Below are positions 1 to 36,542 of a DNA stretch of 36,544 nucleotides, one piece after another. The stretch spans positions 1-36,544 of the forward strand of contig JAFTFV010000057.1 in the NCBI GenBank assembly GCA_017458265.1. The letters are read 5' to 3'. Position 1 is the stretch's first letter. Each line of letters opens with the position of its first letter. The DNA comes from Bacteroidales bacterium. GTDB taxonomy: Bacteria > Bacteroidota > Bacteroidia > Bacteroidales > UBA932. Below the pieces are notes generated by a model that did not search any database, was not told where the DNA came from, and saw only the letters and a list, made by a program, of their open reading frames with translations. The position numbers and the translations under genes are program-made.

Positions 1-20
1 GTAAAAGAGAAAGACACTAT

Positions 21-2525
21 ATGAAAGGAACAGCAGCACCACTTTTGTCATTTTTGGAGGGAGCAAGAAAGCGATTCATTATCCCGGTATACCAGAGGAA
101 CTATGACTGGGGCTTTCCACAGTGCCAGCAGCTTTTTAATGACCTTGTAGACCTTGTCAAGAATGACCGGGCCAATCACTTCTTCGGCTGCATTGTCCGT
201 GCACAGGCAAAGGATGCAGGTGCAGATGAATATCTCATCATTGACGGCCAACAGCGCATGACGACGGTCTGCTTGATATTTCTCGCTATTTATTGGAATA
301 TCAAGCAGGGGAATATTGAGCCCGAAGACCCTCGTCTGGCAGAGAAGATTTATAAGAAATTCCTCGTGGATGAGTTTGATCCAAAGGACAAGAAGATCCG
401 TCTCAAGCTGAATAAAGAAGACCGGAAGGCATTCGATCACCTCGTCGATTTTGGGGACGGCCATGAATTTGAGAATTCCAGAGTGGTCACCAATTATGAG
501 TTCTTCTATAAGCGACTTCAGACGTTGTCATTCCCAGTAGACGATTTCTACGATGCCATTAGAAAGCTCATCGTCATCGACATTTTCCTTGGTGGCGACG
601 ATGATGCTCAGCTGATTTTCGAGAGCCTCAACTCTACCGGGCTTGAGTTGACCGAGGCAGACAAGATTCGCAACTTCGTCCTTATGGGCCTTTCCGAAAA
701 GGATCAGGAAGAATACTACAACAAGTATTGGAGTTACATCGAAAAGTATTGCTCTGGGAACAATGCCCTTGATAATTTTGTTCGAGATTATCTGACGCTG
801 AAATCTCCGACTGGCGAAATCCCCAAGTTTAAAGGAATTTACTCTGCATTTAAGACCTTCTCTGAAGGCCAGAATATGGAGTCGATTTTGTCGGAGATGA
901 AGCTCTATTCTGACTGGTATAACAAGATTCGCTCCGCCAATGTGGGCAATGCTGCAGCTAATGAGATAATGGCCCGCCTCAACTACCTTGAGATGACGGT
1001 CACGTATCCGTATCTGATGGGCTTCTTGGCTTATGCAAAGGATGTTCAAATGGAGGAGAGCGAGGTTAAAGATGTGCTGTCTTGCATCGAGGTATTTATC
1101 TTCCGCAGGCTCGTTTGCGGCTACCCGACAAATGCCTTAAACAAGGTCTTTGCAACGTTACACCAGCAGATTCTGAAAAACAAGCGGGAAAGCGACAGCT
1201 ATTACTCCGTAATGGTCTACCTGTTACAGAATAGGCGCAAGACGATTATCTTCCCGAAGGACGACGAGTTTGTACGGGACTTTACCACTAAGTCGGTATA
1301 CAACATGCGGCCCAAGAACCGCTCCTACATATTCGACAGGCTGGAGAATGGCAGCAGCAAGGAAAAGAACAACGTTATAGACTATATCCAGAAGGGCGAG
1401 CTGACCGTAGAACACATTATGCCGCAGGTGCTCACTCCGGCATGGCAGGAAGCACTGGGTGAGGAGCATTTCCGCATCCACGAAGAATGGCTGCATACCA
1501 TTGCTAACCTCACGCTCACTGGATATAATTCTCAATACAGCAACCGCACCTTCGCCGAAAAGAAAACTGTCGAGAACGGTTTTGCTCAGAGCGGATTACG
1601 CCTTAATCAGTACATCGCGCAGTTCGATAAATGGACGGAAGATGAGATGAAATTGCGCAGGGACAAGCTGGCTGAGCTTGCCAAAGGCGTCTGGCCATAT
1701 CCGGAGTCAGATTATAAGCCGGATGTGCGCCTCGACGATGAGGTTCCCATTGGCGATGAGGACTTTAATTATTCCGGACGGAAAATCACGAGTTTCCGTC
1801 TTTGTGGCACACCGTATTCTGTTGTAGACTGGGCCGGGGCAACAATTACCGTTCTTAAACTCTTATATGAGCTGGATCCTCGCTTCTTAATCGCGGAGGC
1901 CAAGGACCCGAATAACGGATGGATTGTGCCCAAAGATCCAGACGGGCGCTATCCGCATAAACAAATCGCTGATGGCGTTTGGATGAACATGTCCAATGAT
2001 ACCAACACAAAGATTCGTATCATTCGCAGCGTTTATCGGAACTATGATCTTTCCGATGACGACCTGGTATTTACTCTTCTTCCTGCAAAGGAAAAAGATG
2101 ATGCTCCCGCTAATGCCGAGTCCGAAACGTGGATGATGCCCTCAAATAACAACATTTTCCGGGTAGATGATTGTATTGACGACCGGGGCGTTATCTTCTG
2201 GCGGCAGTATAACAATTTCTCCGTTGGTGATTATATTTATCTCTACGGGACAAAACCGGAAAGCCGAATTAAGTATTTAATGCAGGTAGAAGAAACCGAT
2301 ATACCGCATAGCGATGAGATTGATGATAAGGAGTATTGGTTGTCCGAGACTGAATTTAACGAGCGTTCAAAGCATAATCGGTACTTAAAGCTCCGTCTCA
2401 TTCAGAAGATTGAGTCAGATGCGCTATCTCTGGAAGACCTGCTTGAACATGGCCTTAAAGGTGCCCCCCAAGGTGCCATGAGGCTTTCCGGAGAGCTGCT
2501 GGATTATATCAAGGAGAATTCTTAG
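21..2525 (+). CDS. DUF262/DUF1524 (GmrSD-type) nuclease with C-terminal EVE-like region
   Basis: 834 residues. The N-terminal DUF262 domain shows VYQRNYDW (residues 23-30) and the signature IDGQQRMTT (74-82), the nucleotide-hydrolysing ParB-like half of GmrSD enzymes. A DUF1524 His-Me nuclease-like domain follows with EHIMPQ (464-469; H465 is the presumed catalytic His) and a downstream N-x-F-x-x-K pattern. Known GmrSD proteins cut phage DNA carrying modified cytosines. About 280 further residues lie beyond DUF1524: a stretch near 590-690 I do not recognise with confidence, and a last part (about 700-834) with VGDYIYLYGTKPESRIKY and GLKGAPQGAMRL patterns that resemble EVE/PUA-like modified-base readers; this last assignment is inference. 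The ATG is preceded by an A/G-rich stretch (GAGAAAG). The next gene starts 10 bases after the stop. The function as a modification-dependent defence nuclease is inferred from the family. Confidence 0.85.
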   Translation: MKGTAAPLLSFLEGARKRFIIPVYQRNYDWGFPQCQQLFNDLVDLVKNDRANHFFGCIVRAQAKDAGADEYLIIDGQQRMTTVCLIFLAIYWNIKQGNIEPEDPRLAEKIYKKFLVDEFDPKDKKIRLKLNKEDRKAFDHLVDFGDGHEFENSRVVTNYEFFYKRLQTLSFPVDDFYDAIRKLIVIDIFLGGDDDAQLIFESLNSTGLELTEADKIRNFVLMGLSEKDQEEYYNKYWSYIEKYCSGNNALDNFVRDYLTLKSPTGEIPKFKGIYSAFKTFSEGQNMESILSEMKLYSDWYNKIRSANVGNAAANEIMARLNYLEMTVTYPYLMGFLAYAKDVQMEESEVKDVLSCIEVFIFRRLVCGYPTNALNKVFATLHQQILKNKRESDSYYSVMVYLLQNRRKTIIFPKDDEFVRDFTTKSVYNMRPKNRSYIFDRLENGSSKEKNNVIDYIQKGELTVEHIMPQVLTPAWQEALGEEHFRIHEEWLHTIANLTLTGYNSQYSNRTFAEKKTVENGFAQSGLRLNQYIAQFDKWTEDEMKLRRDKLAELAKGVWPYPESDYKPDVRLDDEVPIGDEDFNYSGRKITSFRLCGTPYSVVDWAGATITVLKLLYELDPRFLIAEAKDPNNGWIVPKDPDGRYPHKQIADGVWMNMSNDTNTKIRIIRSVYRNYDLSDDDLVFTLLPAKEKDDAPANAESETWMMPSNNNIFRVDDCIDDRGVIFWRQYNNFSVGDYIYLYGTKPESRIKYLMQVEETDIPHSDEIDDKEYWLSETEFNERSKHNRYLKLRLIQKIESDALSLEDLLEHGLKGAPQGAMRLSGELLDYIKENS

Positions 2526-2535
2526 GGTCACTTTT

Positions 2536-3303
2536 ATGGACGTCATCTTTCTCCCAAATGACTTGCAGGCAGCAACTATTGAGTTGCGCAATAAAGCGGC
2601 TGCTATTCAGTTTCCTAAAATTGTGAAACCAATTTTCGAGAATCTGGAGGAGTGCGGTTTAGACAAGCTTGTAAGCTTTGTTTACAGAGGAGATGTGCGC
2701 GATGTCGATATCCTGTACCCAAAGTTCAATGCCGGGATGCAAGAGAAACAAGAAGATATCGAGAAGATTGTCTTCTTAATGCAAAAACACGGGCTGAATG
2801 TGACGCAAAGTTTGCAGGACGATCTGGTTTTCCTGAAGAAGCAAATTAAACTTAAGGCCACAATCAACAACTTTGAGAATTGGCTCTTGTCGCACCTTGC
2901 ATACCTCGATATCGATGATCTGGAAGTGGAAACCATAGTCTATTCTCCAAAGTCCGGCTTCCTCTTGAAATTCGTAGGAGTCGACCCTATAAAAGAGGAG
3001 GTGGAAAACTTACCGAGCGTTAATGTGATAAATACACCCCCAGTCGTTTCCATTAGCAAAGATGAAGGGGCCACTGCTCCCACAAAAGAGAAAAAACAGC
3101 CCAGCCTCTCTCCAGAGGAATGGAAGAAACAATCGAAAGGTTATCAGTGGGTACAAGAGCAGCTTAAGTTGGGAAAACGCAGAAAGGACATCATTTGCGA
3201 ATTCAATCTTAGGCATCGAAAAGATCCAGACAATTATTCATCCAGAGAGGGCAAAGAACTGAGTGCCGCGATTTTAAGCCATTGGGCAAAAGATGGAAAA
3301 TAA
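2536..3303 (+). CDS. Unknown protein, possible C-terminal DNA-binding domain
   Basis: 255 residues, family not recognised. Three parts are visible: an N-terminal helical region (1-120) with several charged amphipathic stretches, a linker (about 160-190) rich in P, T, K and E, and a C-terminal basic region (about 190-250) containing GKRRKD, LRHRKDP and SSREGKELS. The last part could be a small DNA-binding or HTH-like fold, but no residue pattern proves it. It begins 10 bases after the DUF262/DUF1524 gene and is very likely co-transcribed with it, so a partner role in the same system is possible. No signal peptide or membrane segment is seen. Confidence 0.7.
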   Translation: MDVIFLPNDLQAATIELRNKAAAIQFPKIVKPIFENLEECGLDKLVSFVYRGDVRDVDILYPKFNAGMQEKQEDIEKIVFLMQKHGLNVTQSLQDDLVFLKKQIKLKATINNFENWLLSHLAYLDIDDLEVETIVYSPKSGFLLKFVGVDPIKEEVENLPSVNVINTPPVVSISKDEGATAPTKEKKQPSLSPEEWKKQSKGYQWVQEQLKLGKRRKDIICEFNLRHRKDPDNYSSREGKELSAAILSHWAKDGK

Positions 3304-3328
3304 ATAAAACTCAAGACCTCGCAACAAT

Positions 3329-3631
3329 ATGGGCAACAATCAATATGTAGATCTTTGGGAAAAGTATCGTCCCGTCATAAACACCCTCATCAAGAACGGT
3401 GGTGGTTCTTACCAGCTGTCCGCACATGAGTTTGCGCAGCGCGGGAATCGCGACAGTTATTCGTTTCGGCTTTCCATCCTGAATGGCGAAATCCCGATTC
3501 TGGAAGGCAGCGCTGTCGCAAGGGATCTGAAAACGGTGCTGGATGGCAGTAAGACCTTCAAGTCAAATGCGGCTGGAAAGAACATAACCATCCGCTTAAC
3601 TCCATCGTTCATGTTGGAAGTTTCATTATAG
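3329..3631 (+). CDS. Small unknown protein (100 aa)
   Basis: 100 residues, not recognised. The sequence is soluble, mixed alpha/beta in character, with no signal peptide, no cysteine motif and no membrane segment. It sits 25 bases after the preceding gene and 23 bases before the next small gene, in the same run of + strand genes, and codon use looks coding throughout. It may be an accessory subunit of the neighbouring system, but nothing in the sequence gives a function. The ATG start is the first in the frame after the upstream stop and leaves normal intergenic spacing. Confidence 0.6.
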   Translation: MGNNQYVDLWEKYRPVINTLIKNGGGSYQLSAHEFAQRGNRDSYSFRLSILNGEIPILEGSAVARDLKTVLDGSKTFKSNAAGKNITIRLTPSFMLEVSL

Positions 3632-3654
3632 TCGAAATTCAAAAGTAACCGCAT

Positions 3655-3960
3655 ATGTCACAACTAACCCTCATCAGCACACATCATTGCTCAAAGCTCT
3701 TCAAGACAAAAGTCCCGGCCATTAGAGAAATCCTCCGTAAAGGATTAATCGAGTTTGTCCGCGACGATTCCGACGTATACAAAATCAGCCTAAAGAGTGC
3801 ACTAAACTACGCCTACGCACATCACATTGACATCGATAAAGACTACCTTCGCCAGATTGATACCAAGGTCGCTCCTTGGCGCGAAGATACGCGTGGGGTT
3901 TATGGGAAAAAGACCATCGACCTCGATGTTGAGAAAGAAATCCTGAACTTCGAGGAATAA
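3655..3960 (+). CDS. Small unknown protein (101 aa)
   Basis: 101 residues, not recognised. Residues 15-60 (TKVPAIREILRKGLIEF, then a short strand-like stretch and a second helix) could form a compact winged-helix-like unit, but this is only a shape impression. The C-terminus is acidic. No membrane or export signal. Its stop is followed after one base by the ATG of the exonuclease gene, which argues for translational coupling and a shared transcript. Confidence 0.6.
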   Translation: MSQLTLISTHHCSKLFKTKVPAIREILRKGLIEFVRDDSDVYKISLKSALNYAYAHHIDIDKDYLRQIDTKVAPWREDTRGVYGKKTIDLDVEKEILNFEE

Positions 3961-3961
3961 G

Positions 3962-4771
3962 ATGTCTCGCGACCACACACAAGAGGCACTTGACGAATAC
4001 TACTCCACCGGGATAGATCCAACCGGGGGTGAGATCGGCCTTGACTTTGATCCGGAAACCGGAGATATCCTCAGTGAGAATATTGAGGATATTGAGGAAA
4101 ACGTATTCGAGCCTTCTGGTCGTGACATACAGTTTGAGTACAACGTAAAAGCCGACGGGCACATTTACATCCCCAGCCGGGTTTTGTTCTTTGACACCGA
4201 GACGGACGGGCTCCCGCAGGAAGACAGTCCCAGCGCAGAAGTCGCTCCGGAGAACTGGCCCCACATCGTGCAGCTGGCATGGGTGGAGACGGATGACGAA
4301 GGGCACGAGCTGAGCTTCGGCAGCAAGATTATCAAGCCAGAGGGATTTGTGATTCCCGAAGATGCCACCGCCATTCATGGAATCACACAGGAATATGCAA
4401 TGCGTGTCGGAGAGCCCAGAAAGAAAGTAATGCGGAAGTTCAAGCAGCTGCTTGGCCGCAATTACCTGAACGTTGCCCACAACCTCTGGTTTGATGCCAA
4501 CGTGATTGCAGCAGAATTCTGGCGCTGCCATGTAGATAACGGCCACTTCCTCTACAGCGCTGGCTATTGCACTATGGAGGGCACCACAGATTTGTGCAAA
4601 CTGCCTTTTGAAAGTGACAACCATCCAGATTGCATGTACAAGTGGCCAAAACTAACAGAGCTGCATGAGTTCCTATTTGGGCGCTCTTTTGACGGAGCCC
4701 ACGATGCTCTGAACGATGTAAGGTCGACGGCTCGGTGTTTCTGGGAACTTGTAAAACGCGGATTGATATGA
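3962..4771 (+). CDS. DEDDh 3'-5' exonuclease (DnaQ/RNase T-like)
   Basis: 269 residues. The exonuclease domain starts near residue 73. Motif I is FFDTETDG (D78, E80), the HGIT element is at 139-142, motif II is HNLWFDAN (D178), and motif III is HDALND (H247, D252), so all five residues of the DEDDh active site are present. The family removes nucleotides from 3' ends of DNA or RNA with two metal ions, as in the proofreading subunit epsilon. The first 70 residues are acidic and unlike the housekeeping epsilon, so this is an accessory exonuclease, not the replicative one. It overlaps the following lipoprotein gene by four bases (ATGA). Confidence 0.88.
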   Translation: MSRDHTQEALDEYYSTGIDPTGGEIGLDFDPETGDILSENIEDIEENVFEPSGRDIQFEYNVKADGHIYIPSRVLFFDTETDGLPQEDSPSAEVAPENWPHIVQLAWVETDDEGHELSFGSKIIKPEGFVIPEDATAIHGITQEYAMRVGEPRKKVMRKFKQLLGRNYLNVAHNLWFDANVIAAEFWRCHVDNGHFLYSAGYCTMEGTTDLCKLPFESDNHPDCMYKWPKLTELHEFLFGRSFDGAHDALNDVRSTARCFWELVKRGLI

Positions 4772-4992
4772 GAAAAACGGTGCTCATAGTAATCGCGATT
4801 CTTGGAGTGGCCGCATGCGGCTCCCGGACGCAGGCCCCGGTACCAGATCCGGAGGCCCAGAAGGAGATTGCCCGGCTCGACAGCCTGGTACAGGATCTCC
4901 AGCAGAAGAATGCCGCTCAAGAGGAGCGCATCATGGATCTGGAAGACGACCTTGATGAAGTAATCAGTTATCTAAACCAACAAGGATATTGA
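4768..4992 (+). CDS. Small lipoprotein with coiled coil
   Basis: 74 residues from the ATG at 4768, which overlaps the exonuclease stop as ATGA. A start at 4735 would put 11 polar residues before the signal peptide and lie deep inside the exonuclease gene, so I reject it. MRK, a hydrophobic core and GVAACGS form a lipoprotein signal with lipid-anchored Cys at residue 19. The mature part is short and acidic, with a heptad-like pattern (LDSLVQDLQQKNAAQEERI) typical of a coiled coil. An envelope protein coupled to an exonuclease gene is odd; the function is unknown. Confidence 0.72.
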   Translation: MRKTVLIVIAILGVAACGSRTQAPVPDPEAQKEIARLDSLVQDLQQKNAAQEERIMDLEDDLDEVISYLNQQGY

Positions 4993-4993
4993 A

Positions 4994-5200
4994 ATGAAGA
5001 TTGAGGAAGCCATAGTGTTTGTCCTTGCCTCCTCCGGGCAGGGTATGAAAACCGAGCAGATTGCCCGCGAGATTAATGAGCGCGGTCTGTTCCACCGCTG
5101 GGACATGGTCCCGGTGGATGGCAAGATGGTGTACGCTGTCATTATGTCGCACCCGGACACGTTTTGCAAATCAGAGGGTCGGATAAGACTTCTCATATAG
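4994..5200 (+). CDS. Stand-alone HARE-HTH domain protein
   Basis: 68 residues that are nearly all one HARE-HTH winged-helix domain: a hydrophobic first helix (EEAIVFVL), an MKTEQIAREINERGL recognition-type helix, the R-W-D-M-V-P segment, VYAVIMSHPDTF and the terminal GRIRLL strand. In bacteria this domain occurs in the RNA polymerase delta subunit and fused to restriction and DNA-repair enzymes, where it is thought to connect to DNA or chromatin-like features. Here it stands alone, one base after the lipoprotein stop and two bases before the next start. A DNA-binding role is inferred from the family. Confidence 0.72.
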   Translation: MKIEEAIVFVLASSGQGMKTEQIAREINERGLFHRWDMVPVDGKMVYAVIMSHPDTFCKSEGRIRLLI

Positions 5201-5202
5201 TG

Positions 5203-5478
5203 ATGGACAAGAACAACAATAAAGTGATGGACACTGCGAGGATGCTGTACGCATACCTCAAGGAACATTGCGTTGGCAAGCAGACCTCCACATGGAATCT
5301 CGCTCGGAAAGCCTCTCTCGCGCTTGAAGATAATGACCTATGGGCCGTTCATGAAGCCCTTTGGACAGTTGTCGAAGAAGAGGGCGAGTATGAAATGTAC
5401 CTTGGCAGTTACGCCAATGAAATTGTCGGCGTGCCGTACAACATCCCGTTCAGATTCCGTCTCAAGAAGAGAAAGTAG
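5203..5478 (+). CDS. Small unknown protein (91 aa)
   Basis: 91 residues from the ATG at 5203, two bases after the HARE-HTH stop. An ATG at 5164 in the same frame would overlap the HARE-HTH gene by 37 bases and is less likely. It is mostly helical with an acidic middle (VVEEEGEYEMY) and a basic C-terminus (RFRLKKRK). The family is not recognised. It is the last gene of the tightly packed run 3655-5478, so it probably works with the exonuclease and the HARE-HTH protein. Confidence 0.6.
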   Translation: MDKNNNKVMDTARMLYAYLKEHCVGKQTSTWNLARKASLALEDNDLWAVHEALWTVVEEEGEYEMYLGSYANEIVGVPYNIPFRFRLKKRK

Positions 5479-5506
5479 AAAAAAAAACTATAATCCATAT
5501 TGGCAT

Positions 5507-6445
5507 ATGAAAAAATTCTTTATCATCCTTGCATTATGCATCCCGATTCTTGGATTTGGACAGAATAGAAAATTCGACAAGTTGTTGGATAAATATGACT
5601 GTCTCCCATACGTGCAAGACCTACAAAGTCGCACTGCATATGACTTCTGGTATGCAGTGGTCACAAACAGCCCTCGTCTCAAGAAAACAATGGAGGCATC
5701 TGAAAAAGGGAAAGAGACTTTTGTCAAAGCTCGCCAAAAAGTGGGAAATGTAATGATGCGTGCTAAATACCTCGGTGATAATCGCTCGTATATAACGGAT
5801 ATGCCATTTCTGGATACATTGAGCATGCATTTGCTGGGTGATTTAGAGGTAAAGAAGCTTAGAAGCGATTTTAATATCCGTTTCTATTATGACGATTATG
5901 CTAATGCAATGGCCGACCCGGACGCAAATATCTTTGTGACAAGCGGGCTAATGAACACCCAGGGACTGGATTATAATTCTCTTCTCGGCATAATGGCTCA
6001 TGAATGTGCCCATACTCTTCTTTTCCATGTTATGCAAGAAGCTTATGAAACCGAGGAAAAGTACAGAAAAAATCAAATAGCTGGTGCTATTACAGCTGGG
6101 GTTAATGCTGCTGCGGCTGGATATGCTCAGGCTCAAGGCGTTCAGGTTGACTGGGACGATGTCAATAATACCACTTACCAGTTGGCTGATGCTGCATATG
6201 AAGATGCATACGGGAGATTTCGTTTCAAATATTCGAGAGAACAAGAGCTCGAAGCAGACATTATCGCTTGCCGTATTCTTGATTGGATTGGCGTCGGCGC
6301 AGATCATTACATTCAGGCGCTCGAAGTCATGAAAGATGATGAGGTTGTGTCTAATGGCGACAAGGATGGTGACCATCCGACAATTGCATATCGAGTAAAA
6401 TTTCTCGAATATATGCAAGAAACTCGTCCTCTGTTCAAAGAGTAA
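5507..6445 (+). CDS. Exported M48-family zinc metalloprotease
   Basis: 312 residues from the ATG at 5507; upstream in the frame there is only non-coding-like sequence overlapping the previous gene. MKK plus a hydrophobic core ending at GFGQ is a signal peptide. The M48 zinc site is complete: HECAH (165-169) inside MAHECAHTLLFH, and E249 in ELEAD as the third ligand. The FVTSGLMN segment before it matches the M48 strand that precedes the active-site helix. A C-terminal HPTIAYR element is also typical of the family. M48 enzymes with signal peptides (BepA/LoiP-like) degrade misassembled envelope proteins. It lies 28 bases after the previous gene, with no recognisable promoter between. Confidence 0.87.
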   Translation: MKKFFIILALCIPILGFGQNRKFDKLLDKYDCLPYVQDLQSRTAYDFWYAVVTNSPRLKKTMEASEKGKETFVKARQKVGNVMMRAKYLGDNRSYITDMPFLDTLSMHLLGDLEVKKLRSDFNIRFYYDDYANAMADPDANIFVTSGLMNTQGLDYNSLLGIMAHECAHTLLFHVMQEAYETEEKYRKNQIAGAITAGVNAAAAGYAQAQGVQVDWDDVNNTTYQLADAAYEDAYGRFRFKYSREQELEADIIACRILDWIGVGADHYIQALEVMKDDEVVSNGDKDGDHPTIAYRVKFLEYMQETRPLFKE

Positions 6446-6496
6446 AGATAGGACACATAGCAGGAATAATCTGACACTGATATCGAGAAGCTGCAC

Positions 6497-7408
6497 ATGA
6501 AGACCTACGCACTCTTTCAACAATACATCTGGCTGGTAAACACCATCCACAAGGCAGAGAACGGAATCACGCTGGAGGAAATAAACCAGCGCTGGCTCGA
6601 TACTGATGCAAGCGAGGGTATTCCCATTGCCAGAAGCACGTTCAATCGGCACAGGGATTCCATTCTGGATATCTTCGGCATTATCATCGAGTGCAACAAG
6701 AAGAACGGATTCCGGTACTACATCGACAATTCCGACGTGCTGGAAGAGGATACCATCCAGAACTGGATGCTCTCCACGATGTCGGTGAACAGCATCCTCT
6801 CCGACAACAAAGGCGTGCATAACCGCATCGTGCTGGAGCCCATTCCTTCCGAGGGTGAGCATCTGCACAAGTTCATCGACGCCATGAAACGCGGTGTGCG
6901 GGTTAAGGTGGTGTACCGGAAATACGGAGAATCCGAAGTGCGAGAAAGAGTGGTGGATCCGTACTTTGTTAAGCTCACCAACAAGCGCTGGTACGGCATC
7001 GTCCACAAACCGGACGACAAGGGGCATATCTTTGTGCTGGGTTTCGACCGCGTGCAGTCTCTGGAGCTCACCAGCGAGAAGTTCCGCTACCCGAAGGGCT
7101 TCGACCCCATCGGCTTCTTCCGCAACAGTTACGGCATCCTTTCCGTGCAAGACACCCCGGTGGAGAAAGTGACCATCCGGGCCTTTGGGAAGCAGGTTTA
7201 TTACCTGCGCGACCTGCCGCTGCATCCCAGCCAAGAGGAAGTGGCCACAGAGGAGGATTACTCCGACTTCGAGCTCACCCTGCGGCCTACGCCAGACTTC
7301 TATACACCGCTTCTCTCCAGAGGGCCGCTCATCAAGGTGCTGTCTCCGCAGTGGCTGGCAGATGAGATTAAGCGTCAGCACATTGAAGCTGCGGAATTAT
7401 ACAAATAA
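6497..7408 (+). CDS. WYL-domain transcription regulator
   Basis: 303 residues. Residues 1-75 form an N-terminal helix-turn-helix (ITLEEINQRWL and ARSTFNRHRDSILDIFGI). The WYL domain covers about 130-215, with R164-W165-Y166-G167 at the signature position and the conserved VVDPYFVKL and FVLGFDRV strands. A WCX-type C-terminal extension ends the protein. WYL regulators bind a ligand, often thought to be a nucleic acid or nucleotide, and control defence, DNA-damage and prophage genes (for example BrxR and CapW). It sits 82 bases before a gene whose promoter holds a palindrome, with a second copy 1.9 kb further on; regulation of both by this protein is inferred. I see no such palindrome before its own start. 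Confidence 0.88.
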   Translation: MKTYALFQQYIWLVNTIHKAENGITLEEINQRWLDTDASEGIPIARSTFNRHRDSILDIFGIIIECNKKNGFRYYIDNSDVLEEDTIQNWMLSTMSVNSILSDNKGVHNRIVLEPIPSEGEHLHKFIDAMKRGVRVKVVYRKYGESEVRERVVDPYFVKLTNKRWYGIVHKPDDKGHIFVLGFDRVQSLELTSEKFRYPKGFDPIGFFRNSYGILSVQDTPVEKVTIRAFGKQVYYLRDLPLHPSQEEVATEEDYSDFELTLRPTPDFYTPLLSRGPLIKVLSPQWLADEIKRQHIEAAELYK

Positions 7409-7420
7409 TTTTGAAAAAAG

Positions 7421-7464
7421 TTTGAGGTTGTCCCACAGTTTGAGACAACGCCACATTATATTTG
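7421..7464 (+). promoter_or_regulatory. Promoter with 29-bp palindromic operator, copy 1
   Basis: A TTTG at 7421-7424, then TATATTTG at 7457-7464, separated by 32 bases. A dyad covers 7424-7452 and is centred on 7438: GAGGTTGTCCCA on the left and TGAGACAACGCC on the right, 9 of 12 pairs matching. The first 25 bases (from TGAAAAAAG, 7412 to 7436) are identical in copy 2. It lies 26 bases before the ATG of the macro-like gene and 13 bases after the WYL stop. The spacing of 32 is too long for a normal -33 box, so either a regulator rather than a -33 contact sets transcription or the true -33 box is unconserved. Confidence 0.72.
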
Positions 7465-7489
7465 CTGCGGAAACTAAAAGACGAGCACC

Positions 7490-8488
7490 ATGAAAAAGAT
7501 AGGTAAAAAAATCACTCCTGCATTTGTAACCGAGCTTTCTCGGTGTGAAATCTTCGTATTTGGTAGCAATCTGGCCGGGCATCATGCGGGTGGTGCAGCA
7601 CGGATTGCCTATGATAAGTTTGGAGCAGAATGGGGAAACGGAGTCGGTCCGCAAGGCAGATCTTATGCGATTCCTACCATGCAAGGGCCTGTGGAAACCA
7701 TCAAGCCCTACGCAGATGAGTTCATCGCCTATGCAAAAGAGCATCCGTTGAATCGATTTCTGCTCACCAGAGTTGGCTGCGGCATTGCGGGATTCACAGA
7801 TGAAGAGATGGCTCCGCTGTTTGTAGAAGCCCTCGATATCCCCAATATCTCCATTCCGGAGGAGTGGCTTCCCATCATGATAGCCGAGCCCCATCGAATT
7901 CTTGATGACGATGTCGAAGCACCCAGTGTAATCGACGAAGATGTGCTTCGGGATCTCTGTAATCAATACAAATATGTTATCGGCTCCGGAGTTCAGTCTC
8001 CAAGGCCAGAAATTCGCATCCGCTACATGTCATCCGACGGGCAATTGAGAATCGCAAGCTTCGGTGATTTCTTCTTCTATGGGCAGGAGCTGTATGTTTT
8101 TGATTGTGACGATATGTGGGCATCGGAGCACAATGAAGGTGTTGTCATAGACTATTTCCATGACGAATGCAAAGGGCGTGGATATGCTCATAAAGTGACC
8201 TTTGCCGGAGTTCGGACAGGCATCCGAGATTCCAATGGCAAGATTATTTTCACCGGTGATGTTTGCAAAATTGTACGTGGGGCTTCTCATTACCGTTTCG
8301 CATTCAGTTCTTTTGGAGCAGATGGAAAAAATGGTTGCTACGCCTTTGTCCTCGATAATCACAAACTCACGGTGTATGATTGCGATTCGGTCACGATCGA
8401 CGGGAATATTTTTGAAAAGGAACAGGATCTCGACTGGCCGCAGCCGCTCATCTCGCGCTGCGCATCATACAACAAAGAATCGGCATAA
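7490..8488 (+). CDS. Macro-like FGSN-domain protein with unknown C-terminal domain
   Basis: 332 residues. Residues 1-130 belong to a family common in Bacteroidota with FGSNLAGHHAGGAA (24-37), YAIPTM (59-64), and RVGCGIAGF (94-102). The FGSN/glycine-rich loop and a later GCGIAGF loop look like the two nucleotide-contacting loops of macrodomains, so an ADP-ribose- or nucleotide-related role is plausible, but the family has no settled function that I know. Residues 150-332 form a second, beta-rich region that I do not recognise. The gene is first in a two-gene unit behind the palindromic promoter at 7421-7464. Confidence 0.78.
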   Translation: MKKIGKKITPAFVTELSRCEIFVFGSNLAGHHAGGAARIAYDKFGAEWGNGVGPQGRSYAIPTMQGPVETIKPYADEFIAYAKEHPLNRFLLTRVGCGIAGFTDEEMAPLFVEALDIPNISIPEEWLPIMIAEPHRILDDDVEAPSVIDEDVLRDLCNQYKYVIGSGVQSPRPEIRIRYMSSDGQLRIASFGDFFFYGQELYVFDCDDMWASEHNEGVVIDYFHDECKGRGYAHKVTFAGVRTGIRDSNGKIIFTGDVCKIVRGASHYRFAFSSFGADGKNGCYAFVLDNHKLTVYDCDSVTIDGNIFEKEQDLDWPQPLISRCASYNKESA

Positions 8489-8533
8489 TCGGTCGACAGC
8501 TTCCGCATAGAATAGAAATCAACGACCACGCTT

Positions 8534-9286
8534 ATGAAGATACAACTCATCGGATTCGATTATAATCTGAATCCAAATTCCAAACTTGAAATAACAAAAG
8601 AGATTATTAATAGTTCAGAGGCTGATCTTCTCCTATTCCCCGGCCATACGCTTCGGAACTATGATGACTTGGACTTTCTGGAGGACAATCTCACAAACTC
8701 AAAAACCACAGTCGTTTTGGAGATGGAAGACTCTTGGCCGTCAAGCTGCCTTTACCTTCATAACGCACTGTTTTTGATTAAGAATGGCGAATCAGAAGAA
8801 ATGTTTACGAGTCAGGTTTTTGCAACGGCCGAGGATATCAACGGATTTGAAGTCCTTATGGAGAAGCTGTTTGATGAAATACCTCGCAGACAATTTGAGT
8901 GCTGTGGCAAACGGTTTACCGTTCTTTTGTGCGGGGAAACGGCGCTACTCGCCAGTGCTAAAGCCGAAGGTTATAAGGCCAGCTTCCGTTTCAAGTCTAA
9001 CCCCAAGTTGAACAAGCGCTATGAGCAATTGCTTGCATCGACAGATGTTTTCCTCAATCCGATTCACGACCTGCAGGGTGAGCAAGGAGTGATGTCTCAG
9101 AGGCGAGCTACCTTAAGTGCAGATGGTCGCTATTATCTGTCAACGTGTGCGCTGAATGAAGAGATGTGGGGAAACTTCAACAGCAAGCGAATCCAATATA
9201 TCAGCCATAATGGAGAGGCGCTAACAATTAAGCCAGATATCCATGATGATAAAGGTTATGTCTCAAGAATCGTTGAGATAAAATGA
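8534..9286 (+). CDS. Nitrilase-like protein, probably lacking the catalytic Glu
   Basis: 250 residues. The order of motifs resembles the carbon-nitrogen hydrolase (nitrilase) fold: a first strand (IQLIGFDYN), ADLLLFPGHTL (30-40) where active enzymes have a Pro-Glu, FTVLLCGETA (128-137) with C133 at the place of the nucleophilic Cys, and TDVFLNPIHD followed by a RRATLSADGRYYLSTCALNE stretch near the end. The Glu of the Glu-Lys-Cys triad appears to be Gly37, so the protein may bind rather than hydrolyse. It follows the macro-like gene by 45 bases with no promoter I can see, so they are likely one unit. Fold assignment is inference. Confidence 0.68.
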   Translation: MKIQLIGFDYNLNPNSKLEITKEIINSSEADLLLFPGHTLRNYDDLDFLEDNLTNSKTTVVLEMEDSWPSSCLYLHNALFLIKNGESEEMFTSQVFATAEDINGFEVLMEKLFDEIPRRQFECCGKRFTVLLCGETALLASAKAEGYKASFRFKSNPKLNKRYEQLLASTDVFLNPIHDLQGEQGVMSQRRATLSADGRYYLSTCALNEEMWGNFNSKRIQYISHNGEALTIKPDIHDDKGYVSRIVEIK

Positions 9287-9292
9287 AAAAAG

Positions 9293-9336
9293 TTTGAGGT
9301 TGTCCCACGCTATGGTACAACCTCGATTTATTTTTG
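9293..9336 (+). promoter_or_regulatory. Promoter with 29-bp palindromic operator, copy 2
   Basis: TTTG at 9293-9296 and TATTTTTG at 9329-9336, again separated by exactly 32 bases. The dyad at 9296-9324 (centre 9310) is near perfect: GAGGTTGTCCCA against TGGTACAACCTC, 11 of 12 pairs. The left 25 bases match copy 1 exactly while the right half differs but keeps the symmetry, which is what selection on a dimer-binding site would give. It lies 35 bases before the HIRAN gene start and begins right after the stop of the nitrilase-like gene. Confidence 0.76.
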
Positions 9337-9371
9337 CTTTCAGAAAGTTAAACCTCTTAAGAGCAAGCCGT

Positions 9372-9719
9372 ATGAAAGCAAAAGAAAACAGACCCGTCAA
9401 GAAAGTCCATCTGACTAATTTCCGCATTGCCGGATTCAGCTATTGGGATGGCCCGGAGGCGTTTGAGCAGCTGAAAGTCGGCACTCGTCTGGACCTTGTC
9501 CGCGAGCCGGACAATAAGTTCGACGCCTATGCCGTAGCCCTTTACCTTGGCGACTTCAAGCTGGGCTTCATTCCTCGTGGCGAGAACCATGACATCTCCA
9601 AGTATCTGGACATGGGACTTGATGACATTTACGAAGTCCGCGTCCAGCGCATCTCACCGGACGAGCACCCGGAGAATCAGGTAGAAGTTATCGTTTACAT
9701 CAAGAACCAGAACAAGTAA
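9372..9719 (+). CDS. Stand-alone HIRAN-domain protein
   Basis: 115 residues from the ATG at 9372. An in-frame ATG at 9294 lies inside the operator and is rejected. The HIRAN domain fills residues 14-115: the FRIAGFSYWDG strand, LVREPDNKFDAYAVAL (the conserved P-x-N-x-x-D-x-x-A-V signature), LGFIPRGEN and a final VEVIVYI strand. HIRAN domains, as in eukaryotic HLTF, recognise single-stranded 3' DNA ends at stalled forks; bacterial stand-alone forms are found near helicases, nucleases and defence genes. It is the first gene behind operator copy 2, and the zinc-ribbon gene follows after four bases. Confidence 0.85.
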   Translation: MKAKENRPVKKVHLTNFRIAGFSYWDGPEAFEQLKVGTRLDLVREPDNKFDAYAVALYLGDFKLGFIPRGENHDISKYLDMGLDDIYEVRVQRISPDEHPENQVEVIVYIKNQNK

Positions 9720-9723
9720 GGCT

Positions 9724-9933
9724 ATGGCACACATCTACACCATCCGCTGCCCTAAGTGCGGCAAAGAATACGAAGTCATGAAAGGGATCCTCATGAGTGA
9801 GTGCGACCTTGATCCCATGCCCAAGGAGCGAGAATTTGAGACTCCGGTGAAGTGCCCTAAGTGTGGATTTGAATTCTCCCTACAGGACGAGAAATACAAG
9901 GACAACATCCTGCTGTCCATGCTTGCAGACTAA
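9724..9933 (+). CDS. Zinc-ribbon protein
   Basis: 69 residues with two CPKC knuckles, IRCPKCGKEYEV near the start and VKCPKCGFEFSL near residue 45, forming a four-cysteine zinc ribbon with an acidic connecting loop. Such small ribbons often bind nucleic acid or bridge proteins. No enzymatic motif is present. It lies between the HIRAN gene (four bases before) and the ADP-ribosylglycohydrolase (three bases after), so the three are certainly co-transcribed and may act together. Confidence 0.78.
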   Translation: MAHIYTIRCPKCGKEYEVMKGILMSECDLDPMPKEREFETPVKCPKCGFEFSLQDEKYKDNILLSMLAD

Positions 9934-9936
9934 GTC

Positions 9937-11127
9937 ATGAGAGAAAACGAGAAACTGACACCTCGCGCCAAGGATCAAGTTCTTGGCTGCATGGTTGGCG
10001 GGGCCGTCGGTGATACCTTTGGCTATGCGGTGGAATTCGCGTCCTACGATTCCATCGTCAAGAAGTATGGAGAGAAGGGCATCACACGTTTTGATCTGGA
10101 CAGGCATGGCGTCGCAGAGATTTCCGACGACACCCAGATGTCCCTTTTCACCGCTGCGGGCATCCTGCTGGGAATGACGCGGGGATTTATGCGAGGCGTC
10201 ATGGGCCGCATTGACACCTACTGCCGCTGGACGTATCTGGATTGGCTCCATACGCAGGAATGGACGTCCCGCCACGAGGATGCCCGCGTGGATTCTTGGC
10301 TCATGGATGTGCCGGAGCTGTATTCCCGTCGAGCACCTGGTAATACCTGTCTGGCGGCTCTGCATTCTCTGGAAGCCGGGAAAGAGGCTCGCAACAATAG
10401 CTGCGGCTGCGGTGGTGTAATGCGGACGGCTCCCTTAGCGCTGCTGAATTACCTTCATGGCTACGCAGATGGTGACAAGTCCTACTGCGACATGTGCGCT
10501 GCCGAGGCTGCACGAATTACCCACAAGCATCCTCTGGGCTTCATCCCGTCGGCCATCCTGAACGACATCCTGATGCAGATTCTGCAGGACGACAATAGCC
10601 GCCGGATTGAGGAATATGTGGAAGAGGCGCTGCTGCGGCTCCCGGAAATCGTCTCCGAGGTTGATGGCGAGAAGAAGTATGGCGAGCTCTGGCCGGATGA
10701 GATTAGGAAGCAGAAGCGGCTTCTCAAAAAGGCACTTGATTTGGCCGCTACAGACATCGAAGACCACTACGCCATCGAATCCATCGGCGGAGGCTGGACT
10801 GGCCATGAGGCGCTCGCAATCGCCATCTACAGCGCTGCCAAGCACCGGGACTCCTTCGAAGACGCCATCGTGAGCTGCGTCAACCACTCCGGAGACAGCG
10901 ATTCCACCGGAGCCATCTGCGGCAACATCATGGGTTGTTTGCTTGGCCGCAGCGCCATCCCTGCACACTACACCGAGCATCTGGAACTTTTGGGTGTCAT
11001 CGAGGAGATGGCCACCGACATTTATACCGGATGCATCATCAGCGAATACGACCACTACGGCTCTCCGGAAAAAGAGCGCTGGGAGATGAAGTATTGTGAA
11101 GCACACCGCTGGACACCAATGAAATGA
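9937..11127 (+). CDS. ADP-ribosylglycohydrolase family protein (ARH/DraG-like)
   Basis: 396 residues. The ADP-ribosylglycohydrolase fold shows GCMVGGAVGDTFGYAVE (17-33), the metal-binding SDDT (63-66), and GDSDSTGAICG (319 onward; D320, D322, T324), which together supply the two-magnesium site. A central NNSCGCGGVMRTAPLAL segment matches the family's NGAAMRxxPL element. Members remove ADP-ribose from arginine, from dinitrogenase reductase or from DNA/RNA ends, and some act as immunity proteins. The substrate here is unknown. It is coupled to the next small membrane protein by an ATGA overlap. Confidence 0.9.
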   Translation: MRENEKLTPRAKDQVLGCMVGGAVGDTFGYAVEFASYDSIVKKYGEKGITRFDLDRHGVAEISDDTQMSLFTAAGILLGMTRGFMRGVMGRIDTYCRWTYLDWLHTQEWTSRHEDARVDSWLMDVPELYSRRAPGNTCLAALHSLEAGKEARNNSCGCGGVMRTAPLALLNYLHGYADGDKSYCDMCAAEAARITHKHPLGFIPSAILNDILMQILQDDNSRRIEEYVEEALLRLPEIVSEVDGEKKYGELWPDEIRKQKRLLKKALDLAATDIEDHYAIESIGGGWTGHEALAIAIYSAAKHRDSFEDAIVSCVNHSGDSDSTGAICGNIMGCLLGRSAIPAHYTEHLELLGVIEEMATDIYTGCIISEYDHYGSPEKERWEMKYCEAHRWTPMK

Positions 11128-11276
11128 AGTTCACAGCGGAGGACATACTTTTAGTCGTTAAGTGGGTATGCATTGCCTTCGGGATCTTTGTGGTTCTCGC
11201 GGGCATCTTTGTGAAATCTGATGACACCCAGCACAATGATCCCAACAATTATCCTCCAGTACCACCTGCAATCTAA
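11124..11276 (+). CDS. Small single-pass membrane protein (50 aa)
   Basis: 50 residues, starting at the ATGA that also carries the ADP-ribosylglycohydrolase stop. Residues 9-30 (LLVVKWVCIAFGIFVVLAG) form one hydrophobic membrane segment, followed by a polar, proline-rich tail (NNYPPVPPAI). No function is recognised. The four-base overlap and clean stop argue that it is a real, translationally coupled gene. Confidence 0.6.
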   Translation: MKFTAEDILLVVKWVCIAFGIFVVLAGIFVKSDDTQHNDPNNYPPVPPAI

Positions 11277-11279
11277 ACA

Positions 11280-11588
11280 ATGTTAGACTTCGACTCAGTT
11301 CCTCCGCCAACGGAGATCCCGGATTACGTCTTGTACAGCAAGAGGTATAATCGAGCGTACATTCCGAGGCAGAAAAAACAGCCAAAAGAGGAGTATAGAG
11401 TTGTTGTACACCCGGACAAGGAAAGTGCTCTCAAGGCTGCGAAAATGGCTGTAAAACAGAAGCGCGATCGCTATTTCGGAAGGGCAAGTGACGAGGGCAC
11501 CTATCAAGATGCCTTCAATGTCTATGAGAACAGCAAAATCGTGGAGCAGCACAGGGTTTCTGGAGACTTGCAGATAGTGCAGAAATAA
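11280..11588 (+). CDS. Small unknown protein (102 aa)
   Basis: 102 residues, not recognised. It begins three bases after the preceding stop. The protein is strongly charged, with a basic middle (PRQKKQPKEEYRVVV and KAAKMAVKQKRDRYFG) that could contact nucleic acid, and no signal or membrane segment. It is the last gene of the accessory run before a gene-free stretch and the tRNA. Confidence 0.58.
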   Translation: MLDFDSVPPPTEIPDYVLYSKRYNRAYIPRQKKQPKEEYRVVVHPDKESALKAAKMAVKQKRDRYFGRASDEGTYQDAFNVYENSKIVEQHRVSGDLQIVQK

Positions 11589-11943
11589 CTTGCTATCCCC
11601 GGAATAAGATGCCATATTTGTGACCGAAGAGATGAAAAGCATCGCATAGGTCTTTGACAACCGGGAAAAGTCGTAACCCTTCCGTAACCCTTTTTTCAAA
11701 ATCGGCCCTCTACGTATGTGAGAGGGCCGAGGTATATGTTCACTCGGTGAATCGAACCCAGCATGAAAAGGGGTGTTTTTTAAGCGATTTTTCTGTAACC
11801 TTGTAACCCAAACAGGAACATTAGGTCACACGTTGGTTACAGACTGGCTACAGTTTTTTGGTTCTTTCTGGTTCTGAAACAGGAACGCCAGAGGAACAAA
11901 AAACGTCACAAACTCGCGGAGTATCAAAGGGTTAGGGAAGTAA
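11589..11943. other. Gene-free region rich in GTAACC-type repeats (possible element end)
   Basis: No credible gene is seen here. Paired GTAACCC copies lie at 11673-11679 and 11684-11690 (11 bases apart), GTAACC(C) at 11795-11800 and 11803-11809, and the inverted form GGTTAC/GGCTAC at 11835-11840 and 11846-11851 (11 apart). A perfect 9-bp hairpin (CGGCCCTCT/AGAGGGCCG) covers 11703-11729, and GGTTCT/AGGAAC copies lie near 11858-11896. Clustered direct and inverted repeats next to a tRNA gene resemble integrase arm sites of an integrated element. The recombination crossover itself cannot be placed. Confidence 0.45.
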
Positions 11944-11986
11944 CTAAAAGAAAATCAAGGACTTAAGTTTTACCTTAAATCCTTGA
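11944..11986 (-). terminator. Terminator of tRNA-Ala
   Basis: Read on the - strand just after the tRNA, TCAAGGA pairs with TCCTTGA and TTAAG with CTTAA around a six-base loop (hairpin 11955-11986, one internal mismatch), followed by TTTTCTTTT. This is an AT-rich but well-formed intrinsic terminator five bases past the tRNA end. Confidence 0.75.
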
Positions 11987-11991
11987 CCTTG

Positions 11992-12064
11992 TGGAGCATA
12001 GGAGAATCGAACTCCTGACCTTTTGAATGCCATTCAAACGCTCTACCAACTGAGCTAATACCCC
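11992..12064 (-). tRNA. tRNA-Ala (anticodon GGC)
   Basis: 73 bases on the - strand fold as a full cloverleaf. The acceptor stem GGGGTAT/ATGCTCC contains the G3-U70 pair that identifies alanine tRNAs. The D arm is GCTC/GAGC, the anticodon stem TTTGA/TCAAA has loop ATGGCAT with anticodon GGC, and the T arm is AGGAG/CTCCT with loop TTCGATT. The discriminator is A and the CCA end is not encoded, which fits the cca gene at 32725-34242. The 3' half faces the gene-free, repeat-rich region and the accessory island. Confidence 0.95.
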
Positions 12065-12083
12065 ATATCCCTTAACGGGACTG

Positions 12084-12114
12084 CAAATATAAGGAGGATT
12101 TCTGAATTTGCAAA
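12084..12114 (-). promoter_or_regulatory. Promoter of tRNA-Ala
   Basis: On the - strand TTTG (12111-12114), 19 bases, then TATATTTG (12084-12091): a full match to the Bacteroidota -33/-7 consensus, 19 bases ahead of the tRNA 5' end. Confidence 0.8.
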
Positions 12115-12131
12115 ATATTTTTTAAGTATCC

Positions 12132-13214
12132 TCACTCAACAACCGAAAGCGGCATTTCCCAGCCGGTGATGGTGGAGACAGAGGGGATGAGGACGCTTGC
12201 AACCTTGCGGTGGCCGGCGTAGTTGGGATGCCAGCTGGCGCCAAGGTCGGAAGTATCGTTGAGGGCGCTCGCATGGACGGCACTCCAATGGACATTGGAA
12301 ACGCCGCTGCGGCGCACGGCTTCCTCCACGTAGGCGGCCATCTTCTCGTCGGCCTTGGAGGCGAGGCAGAGGATGGGGGCCGATGGATAATCGGCACGGA
12401 TCTGCCTGAGGAGGTCTGCGTAGCCGGCACACCAGGAGCCCAGCGAAGGCTGCTTCCCAACAGAGAAGTCGTTGGTTCCCAGATATATGACCACCAGGGA
12501 CGGAACGTATGCCGATGCCTTCCAGAGCGGAGAACTCCCCTCCTCTGAATCGAACACATGGGCGTATTTCCCGGGCATCGTAAGCCCGCCTGCATCTGCA
12601 TAATTCCGCACGACGCCCCGGCCGGAATGGCTCACCGTGACCACATCGGCATTGAAATACCTGCCGACGATGGCCGCATAGGTGTAGCTGGGATTCTCCT
12701 CCGAAGCCCTGAAAGGCTCGTCGCGGCCTGCTGCCTCGGTTCCGTATCCGCAGGTGTAGGAATCGCCCACGAAGAGCAGTTTCCTTTCCTTCAAGCCCCT
12801 GGCCTGCAGGAAGCTTCCGTCGGTAATGAATTCCTCCAGGGTAATCTTCCCCTGCTCCCCTTCCGTGCGCTTCTGGATATAGACGGTGTGTTCCTCCTTC
12901 TTAAGGTTCTCCACCACCGGCACCAGAGCCGATCCGCCAAGCGTCAGCACGAAGTCCGGCACCGCGCAGGGTTCCTTGTCCACCCACACGTTAACGTAGT
13001 TGGTTCCGCTGTCCTGATACCTCATTTCCAGGTACTTGCCCTTGAAGCTTACGACAGCGGTCACACCCGTCCAGTCATAGGAAACCTTACCGCCCTGAAC
13101 CAGAGTGCGGCCGATGTAAGTGAAACAGGGAGAATCTGCACTGCGGCTTTCCTTCGCCCCAAGGACGACGGAGAAAGCCATCAACACGGCAGACACCAGC
13201 ACAGCCTTTCTCAT
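12132..13214 (-). CDS. Exported CE2-type SGNH esterase (acetyl-xylan esterase-like)
   Basis: 360 residues. A signal peptide covers about residues 1-20. Residues 25-135 form the beta-sandwich found at the N-terminus of carbohydrate esterase family 2, with YLEMRYQDSG and NVWVDKEP. The SGNH domain follows: FVGDSYTCGYG (S152 nucleophile), YLGTNDFS (G246-D249), and a late SWHPNYAGH (H329 catalytic). CE2 enzymes remove acetyl groups from plant polysaccharides, consistent with a gut or rumen habitat. It overlaps the bactofilin stop by four bases (ATGA), an odd partner for an esterase. Confidence 0.87.
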   Translation of the reverse strand: MRKAVLVSAVLMAFSVVLGAKESRSADSPCFTYIGRTLVQGGKVSYDWTGVTAVVSFKGKYLEMRYQDSGTNYVNVWVDKEPCAVPDFVLTLGGSALVPVVENLKKEEHTVYIQKRTEGEQGKITLEEFITDGSFLQARGLKERKLLFVGDSYTCGYGTEAAGRDEPFRASEENPSYTYAAIVGRYFNADVVTVSHSGRGVVRNYADAGGLTMPGKYAHVFDSEEGSSPLWKASAYVPSLVVIYLGTNDFSVGKQPSLGSWCAGYADLLRQIRADYPSAPILCLASKADEKMAAYVEEAVRRSGVSNVHWSAVHASALNDTSDLGASWHPNYAGHRKVASVLIPSVSTITGWEMPLSVVE

Positions 13215-36245: not shown

Positions 36246-36248
36246 TAT

Positions 36249-36542
36249 TAAAGCACGGTTTTGGGCACACGGGGCCGATAGTGTGCTTCAGCCAGGGCCC
36301 AGCAGGGGCGTTAAAGCACGGTTTGGGGCACACGGGGCCGATAGTGTGCTTTAACCAGGGCCCACCGGGGGCGTTAAAGCACGGTTTGAGGCACACGGGG
36401 CCGATAGTGTGCTTCAGCCAGGGCCCACCGGGGGCCTTAAAGCACGGTTTGGGGCTCACGGAGCCGATAGTGTGCTTTAACCAGGGCCCATCAGGGGCGT
36501 TAAAGCACGGTTTTGGGCATACGGGGCCGATAGTGTGCTTTA
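36249..36542 (-). repeat. Right REP-like array, at least five 63-bp units, inverted
   Basis: Units start at 36249, 36312, 36375, 36438 and 36501, exactly 63 bases apart, and the array is cut by the window end. Each unit is the reverse complement type of the left array: TAAAGCACGGTTT opens and CCGATAGTGTGCTTTA closes. The core is shared with the left array, with differences in the middle (GGGGCACACGGGGCC here, GAGGCACAGGAGGCC there), and the spacers differ more (CCAGGGCCCACCGGGGGC here). Confidence 0.93.

Follow-up and report, generated by a model that had tools for sequence, protein, structure and literature searches.

DriD of Caulobacter crescentus is a transcriptional activator of the WYL type that is itself activated by single-stranded DNA (ssDNA), and its promoters place the binding site rigidly at -35/-33 (PMC12340889, a preprint; the reports on DriD, PafBC, BrxR, CapW and SiwR are cited throughout from extracts of their text). 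Here, we describe a locus to be compared with DriD in a stretch of 36,544 nucleotides (nt) from a Bacteroidales bacterium (GenBank assembly GCA_017458265.1, contig JAFTFV010000057.1, positions 1 to 36,544), the whole of which is referred to as the window. A gene for a WYL protein is followed in this locus by two promoters, each carrying a 29-bp palindromic dyad and heading its own set of genes, module 1 and module 2. We present evidence that the dyads are very probably docking sites of the neighboring WYL protein, judging from locus comparison. The explanation we consider best, with a chance slightly better than even, is that they are putative operators of a WYL dimer that activates both modules in the manner of DriD. 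The kind of system, a WYL dimer on a palindrome, is already known; the new part is this clade, the exact placing of the dyad at -33 before a TAnnTTTG -7 box, and the exchangeable modules between WYL and HIRAN genes.

With DriD the locus shares a fold consisting of a winged helix-turn-helix (wHTH) domain, helices, a WYL domain and a WCX domain, for which DriD is the best PDB match of the modeled WYL protein, as well as a palindrome over -35/-33 at one distance from the -10/-7 element, a poor -35/-33 element and the presence of several such promoters (PMC12340889). The two proteins are only 16-18% identical, however; the DriD consensus is ATACGAC-N7-GTCGTAT (7-7-7) rather than the ~GTTGTnCCR-N5-TGRnACAAC found here, and the sites found here lie near the WYL gene, within modules. 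PafBC of mycobacteria likewise has the WYL-WCX fold and is an activator, inserting between promoter DNA and sigma region 4 (PMC11804915), but it is a heterodimer on a -26 motif. SiwR of Mycobacterium smegmatis is a WYL activator with a 19-bp palindrome between -35 and -10 (PMC10693628), and differs in serving one adjacent operon with DinB-like genes and a different cargo. BrxR of BREX islands resembles the present case as a WYL dimer on an imperfect inverted repeat with a 5-bp spacer, with two sites per island (PMC9122601), and so does CapW of CBASS, a WYL dimer on palindromes in the promoter of the immune operon (PMC9122588). Both, however, are repressors and weaker structural matches, and the site lies downstream of the promoter for Escherichia fergusonii BrxR and over -10 for CapW.

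A further likeness is to the predicted counter-ADP-ribosylation systems centered on ADP-ribosylglycohydrolase, in which the glycohydrolase occurs with a WYL regulator or Nudix factor and vWA, macro and nuclease genes are variable parts (PMC9503650, section 3.8); in the window, the glycohydrolase gene (9937-11127) stands behind dyad 2, a HIRAN gene and a zinc-ribbon gene. A coupled phosphatase domain is present in slightly more than 55% of those cases, whereas no phosphatase family was matched among the ten window proteins scanned, and homologues of the glycohydrolase were found in only 5 of 83 related loci. Among the matches listed from titles and abstract starts in the open-access literature there was no WYL/HIRAN/Bacteroidales regulon of this kind, the nearest paper (PMC9503650) naming WYL and HIRAN genes as separate neighbors of another gene. 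A clear operator with an exact promoter geometry may make the regulons of many uncultured Bacteroidales readable from sequence, and unknown genes that share the operator become candidates for a role in one common response.

Results

Two related promoters in the window

The 25 bases said in a first-pass annotation of the window to be shared by the two promoters are identical in two copies, one upstream of each module, and the pairing reported for the dyads was recovered on recomputation (Table 1). The promoter pair tops the list of direct repeats for window positions 1-12200 (55 nt, 80% identical). With up to 3 mismatches allowed, the dyad pattern has 2 matches in the window against 0.03 expected; across the whole assembly the dyad alone is not distinctive at this threshold (4 forward matches and 4 in the backward control), the window dyads being the best matches (0 and 2 mismatches). 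When the -7 box is added to the pattern, the two window sites are the sole exact matches in the 2.13-Mb assembly, and the seven further matches, with 2 or 3 mismatches, include the opposite strand of dyad 2. The site model described below finds no site upstream of the window WYL gene (6497), and hence no self-control site there.

Conservation of the dyad with the WYL clade

Conservation was first indicated by dyads next to WYL genes of 37-67% identity. Relatives were collected by a WYL-clade search of named genome contigs, of which the best 80 of 165 were used, and viral contigs added 3. These best 80 of 165 are mostly Bacteroidales metagenome-assembled genomes (MAGs) with titles indicating herbivore guts, the RUG names presumably standing for rumen. 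A site model of 38 columns, built from 13 sites, was applied to a held-out set of 74 loci (1.20 Mb) fetched solely by WYL similarity, which excludes the window, 7 loci that supplied seeds or were set aside together with them (L204-L207, L213, L215, L217), L281 (a near-copy of L280) and L222 (a contig shared with L043, without a site). The model returned 114 sites of at least 16 bits in 66 of the 74 loci (66 of 75 if L222 is counted) and 2 sites in reversed sequence. The sites are co-oriented with the WYL gene in 104 of 114 cases, and in 50 loci a site lies within 400 nt of a WYL end. Among all 84 sequences, with the seeds counted, sites of at least 14 bits occur in 75. The 111 held-out sites of at least 18 bits have the consensus ~[CG][TC]TGT[AC]CC[AG][CT]GATTTG[GA]NACAAC-N7-TA[AT][CT]TTTG. 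Their 5-nt spacer is non-random and asymmetric (~CGATT); asymmetric binding also occurs in DriD.

The first-pass annotation had proposed that the two transcription units form one regulon, with the WYL protein as regulator of both promoters. This proposal is strongly supported by the locus comparison, in which most homologous islands retaining the WYL gene also carry the dyad. The window pair is real, its dyads are probable WYL operators, and the promoter module appears to be spread among many Bacteroidales MAGs. The frequency and orientation of sites in loci fetched by WYL similarity also argue against another protein binding the dyads with WYL as a mere neighbor, which we hold to be improbable. 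HIRAN genes beside a WYL protein at least 50% alike (the truncated WYL of L119, described below, included) are accompanied by the site in 9 of 9 loci and other HIRAN genes in 3 of 16 (p 1e-4, the site model having been trained on most of the positives), and in L138, where the WYL protein is 42% alike, the adjacent HIRAN gene has a different dyad (7/9 pairs) at unchanged distance. Another binder would suit two loci, L136 and L123, which have HIRAN and a site with no WYL match in the fetched stretch, and also the window's own genome, in which three sites of equal spacing have a different dyad and only two places, on other contigs, exceed the WYL cut-off (the second WYL protein is 35% identical).

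Contigs filed as viral (L279, L280, L281) carry the WYL gene with dyads; the WYL protein of L279 is 82% identical, and HIRAN and glycohydrolase are present there. These contigs are perhaps islands on mobile elements or misfiled.

Placement of the dyad in the promoter

Dyads located only through their arms, in a search that left the spacing free (n=106), are followed by T[AT]nnTTTG exactly 7 nt downstream in 85 cases and never at 6 or 8 nt; by eye, several of the remaining 21 have an imperfect box in the equal position and others lie inside genes. The conserved spacing is that from the dyad core to the -7 box, 7 nt, and the dyad is placed on the -33 position. The first-pass annotation had instead stressed a gap between an upstream TTTG and the -7 box. 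This gap does measure 32 nt at both window sites, but of three near relatives L199 and L279 have TTCG in place of the TTTG (it is kept in L200), and its candidacy as a -33 element was rejected on that ground. None of 22 operator promoters has TTG 19 or 20 nt upstream of its -7 box, the fractions for 174 other promoters of these loci being 0.11 and 0.18, although the missing -33 box is not independent evidence because the dyad itself excludes TTG at -33. A site at fixed distance over -35/-33 and a poor -35/-33 element, the two promoter traits of DriD- and PafBC-type activators, are thus both present.

The placing extends beyond this clade. In a set of 104 non-identical WYL genes drawn from several clades, upstream palindromes of any sequence, in the sense orientation, are centered 23.0 nt before TTTG in 14 cases, and at 65 other offsets the mean is 0.55 and the maximum 3. 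Since the listed palindrome sequences vary from clade to clade, different arms seem to be used in the same place by other WYL clades, L138 being an example.

Symmetry of the arms and duplication

The right halves of the window dyads diverge and yet keep the symmetry, as had been noted at first pass, and paired changes are seen at some positions across related loci. In 126 sites, seeds included, a set in which common descent overstates significance, a match is found at pair 1/23 in 71 (46.0 under shuffling), at pair 6/18 in 66 (44.2) and at pair 2/22 in 65 (57.4). Operators of the same locus share 14.2 of 18 arm positions, compared with 13.0 when the labels are shuffled (none of 2000 shuffles as high), and the operator-promoter-leader block occurs once in L122, which is empty, and twice in L042, where a 698-aa gene is inserted. 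A recent local promoter duplication with no shared regulator would account for the doubled block of L042 and for the 25 identical bases of the window; we consider it very unlikely as an explanation of the window pair, since symmetry kept despite differing right halves, paired changes, and exact spacing over many loci point to selection. The more general idea that every within-locus operator pair is a duplication was only partly supported (8 of 68 block pairs exceed the between-locus 99% level), and the window pair is absent from the 15 best within-locus pairs in that test.

Exchangeable modules and their genes

The dyads head exchangeable modules: many unrelated genes stand behind them, and the content of the WYL-HIRAN interval varies among relatives. 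The commonest HIRAN layout is WYL-dyad-HIRAN, whereas in the window a two-gene module stands between and each unit has a dyad. WYL with a downstream HIRAN gene occurs in 34 sequences, 19 with the two at most 350 nt apart and 15 with an insert; all the close pairs except L256 have a site in between, and 30 of the 34 HIRAN genes have a site within 200 nt. Six of the 15 insert loci (the window, L205, L215, L260, L268 and L272) have two sites between WYL and HIRAN, one of which lies within 200 nt of HIRAN. L199, a close relative (WYL 99% in protein, DNA 92% over 988 nt), is without the first module and the HIRAN gene of the window; its post-WYL operator precedes the zinc ribbon and glycohydrolase, and it has one additional weak site (16 bits) at 4804. 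The order in L212 is WYL-dyad-HIRAN-zinc ribbon-glycohydrolase.

An open reading frame (ORF) with an ATG start follows 112 of 129 sites at a distance of up to 250 nt (median 37 nt); these first ORFs encode HIRAN proteins (27, the commonest), WYL proteins (9) and members of 43 further clusters. A Pfam scan of 20 first genes, picked by us, returned, among others, MmeI-type restriction, GmrSD, PD-(D/E)XK nuclease, T5orf172, T4 Rnl2-like RNA ligase, ADP-ribosylglycohydrolase and S24 peptidase (UmuD-like, then umuC), and 8 of the 20 had no Pfam match. This cargo fits defence and nucleic-acid repair, but many modules are of unknown kind and some look lipoprotein-like. umuDC stands behind a WYL-type dyad at L210:2417-3498 and L258:2724-4491, and in L282 (umuD seen). 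A general SOS link was rejected: among 30 umuD loci (149 genomes searched, 84 matching), only L282, whose umuD protein is 94% like that of L210, shows a site scoring 16 bits or more, and 29 have none. UmuDC is an occasional cargo.

Predicted fold of the WYL protein

In an AlphaFold2 (AF2) model (predicted local distance difference test, pLDDT, 83) we place the wHTH domain at about residues 1-78, followed by helices, the WYL barrel at about 134-195 and WCX at about 223-300, by our own reading of the model; helix 46-60 is the likely recognition helix. The closest PDB structures are DriD, then PafBC, BrxR and CapW, and the modeled wHTH-WYL-WCX fold is close to that of DriD, a trait of the DriD/PafBC-like activators. 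The first-pass annotation had drawn its analogy to BrxR and CapW. The analogy holds as to the kind of protein, a WYL protein predicted to bind palindromes, and the imperfect inverted repeat near the WYL gene (arms of 10-11 bp and a 5-bp spacer in those systems) has its counterpart in the 12-5-12 dyads with paired changes. BrxR and CapW are nevertheless second-best comparisons, because the predicted structure is nearest the activator DriD and the rigid -33 placing matches DriD promoters.

Activation or repression

The observations are of sites conserved along with the WYL clade and rigidly spaced in promoters that lack a -33 box, of a modular layout and of a predicted fold; we infer binding, activation, a ligand and a role in defence or repair. 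In the proposed mechanism a dimer of the WYL protein would bind both dyads as operators, each covering -33 of its own promoter and heading one module, A1S_2505-type and 250-aa proteins in the first, HIRAN, zinc ribbon and ADP-ribosylglycohydrolase in the second. The WYL domain would sense ssDNA or another nucleic-acid fragment arising from damage or phage attack, and the signal-bound dimer would span the missing -33 element, hold sigma factor and polymerase, and switch the modules on together.

We slightly favor such a DriD-like activator over a BrxR/CapW-type repressor, because the WYL model is closest to DriD and BrxR and CapW are weaker matches. It is nonetheless a substantial, if lesser, probability that the WYL protein, bound to the same dyads, blocks RNA polymerase until a ligand releases it during infection. 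For BrxR and CapW, WYL proteins of defence islands, repression of defence genes is proven, and the BrxR palindrome of Acinetobacter overlaps a -35 predicted there (PMC9122589). The 12-5-12 dyad is nearer the BrxR R-BOX, 11-5-11 and present twice in one island (PMC9122601), than the 7-7-7 of DriD; negative regulation of ADP-ribosylglycohydrolase systems has been predicted for WYL factors (PMC9503650, section 3.8); and nine sites in other loci precede a WYL gene, which also suits a self-repressor, while DriD is without self-control.

Several further observations weigh against this reading or qualify the results above, in addition to the dependence of the missing -33 box on the dyad. TM-scores of the model to DriD are just ~0.5-0.6, and PafBC and BrxR tie on Z score (13.1, 12.9). 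Eight held-out loci have no site, sites of lower score occur beside WYL genes of other clades (15 in 284 kb, L044-L058; 6 in 226 kb, L139-L198), and in L119 (G171:C43) the dyad and a HIRAN gene (85% identical) remain while WYL is reduced to a 36-residue C-terminal piece. The spacing-free scan returns 11 matches in reversed sequence, and just 14 of the 104 WYL genes satisfy the strict palindrome test. Shuffles are exceeded by pairs 1/23 and 6/18, weakly by 2/22 and 4/20, and by no others: pair 7/17 has no clear excess, two spacer pairs tested do not pair, and the rest hardly vary. Four of the 34 HIRAN genes are without a nearby site (L207, L214, L216, L256), 17 of the 129 sites have no ATG ORF of at least 50 aa within 250 nt, and some first ORFs are probably in the wrong frame, such as L210_1416 over HIRAN. 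The dyad-to--7 geometry offers a simple test of activation versus repression.

A wider version of DriD-like activation, possible but rather doubtful, is that gut Bacteroidales have, under an ssDNA-sensing WYL activator of the DriD kind, a plug-in regulon in which any gene behind the -33 operator would join an alarm response and operator copies would serve as homology seams for gain or loss of HIRAN, ADP-ribosylglycohydrolase, nuclease, restriction, RNA-ligase and UmuDC modules.

Other features of the window

Downstream of WYL, dyad 1 precedes the A1S_2505-type gene and the gene for the 250-aa protein, and dyad 2 precedes HIRAN, zinc ribbon (4 nt after HIRAN) and ADP-ribosylglycohydrolase (3 nt after the zinc ribbon). 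The product of the A1S_2505-type gene has a YopX-like C-terminal part (Pfam YopX 1.8e-4, slightly short of the cut-off), and zinc-ribbon homologues were found in 7 of 83 related loci. Upstream of WYL lie a GmrSD/Orf5-type gene (PADLOC Orf5 1.6e-175) and a gene for a DEDDh exonuclease.

Table 1. Genes and promoter elements of the WYL locus, and related promoters of the same genome
Feature	Position	Strand	Remarks
WYL regulator, 303 aa	6497..7408	+	Pfam WYL 5.3e-10, WCX 2.6e-8
25-nt copy 1	7412..7436	+	identical to 9284-9308
Dyad 1	7424..7452		29 bp, 12-5-12; conserved core 7427-7449; 9/12 complementary pairs
Promoter span 1	7427..7464		dyad core and -7 box
-7 box, module 1	7457..7464	+	TATATTTG; starts 7 nt past 23-nt dyad core
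Module 1 gene 1, A1S_2505-family N-terminal domain	7490..8488	+	NCBIfam NF049995 1.7e-41
Module 1 gene 2, 250 aa	8534..9286	+	matches no family in scans run
25-nt copy 2	9284..9308	+	identical to 7412-7436
Dyad 2	9296..9324		29 bp, 12-5-12; conserved core 9299-9321; 11/12 complementary pairs
Promoter span 2	9299..9336		dyad core and -7 box
-7 box, module 2	9329..9336	+	TATTTTTG; starts 7 nt past 23-nt dyad core
HIRAN-domain protein, 115 aa	9372..9719	+	Pfam HIRAN 2.6e-13; PADLOC PDC-M03B 4.1e-15
Zinc-ribbon-like protein, 69 aa	9724..9933	+	zinc-ribbon matches, every one below cut-off
ADP-ribosylglycohydrolase (DraG/ARG type)	9937..11127	+	Pfam PF03747 2.2e-62
Other-dyad promoters, own genome	G000:C29:2552, C56:6738, C31:11276		L314, L315, L317

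The three other promoters of the same genome carry the dyad ~GCTTGCGCA-N5-TTGGCACAAGC at equal spacing to the -7 box. Close to the contig end, an ORF with a repeated unit lies on the minus strand at window positions 36193-36459.
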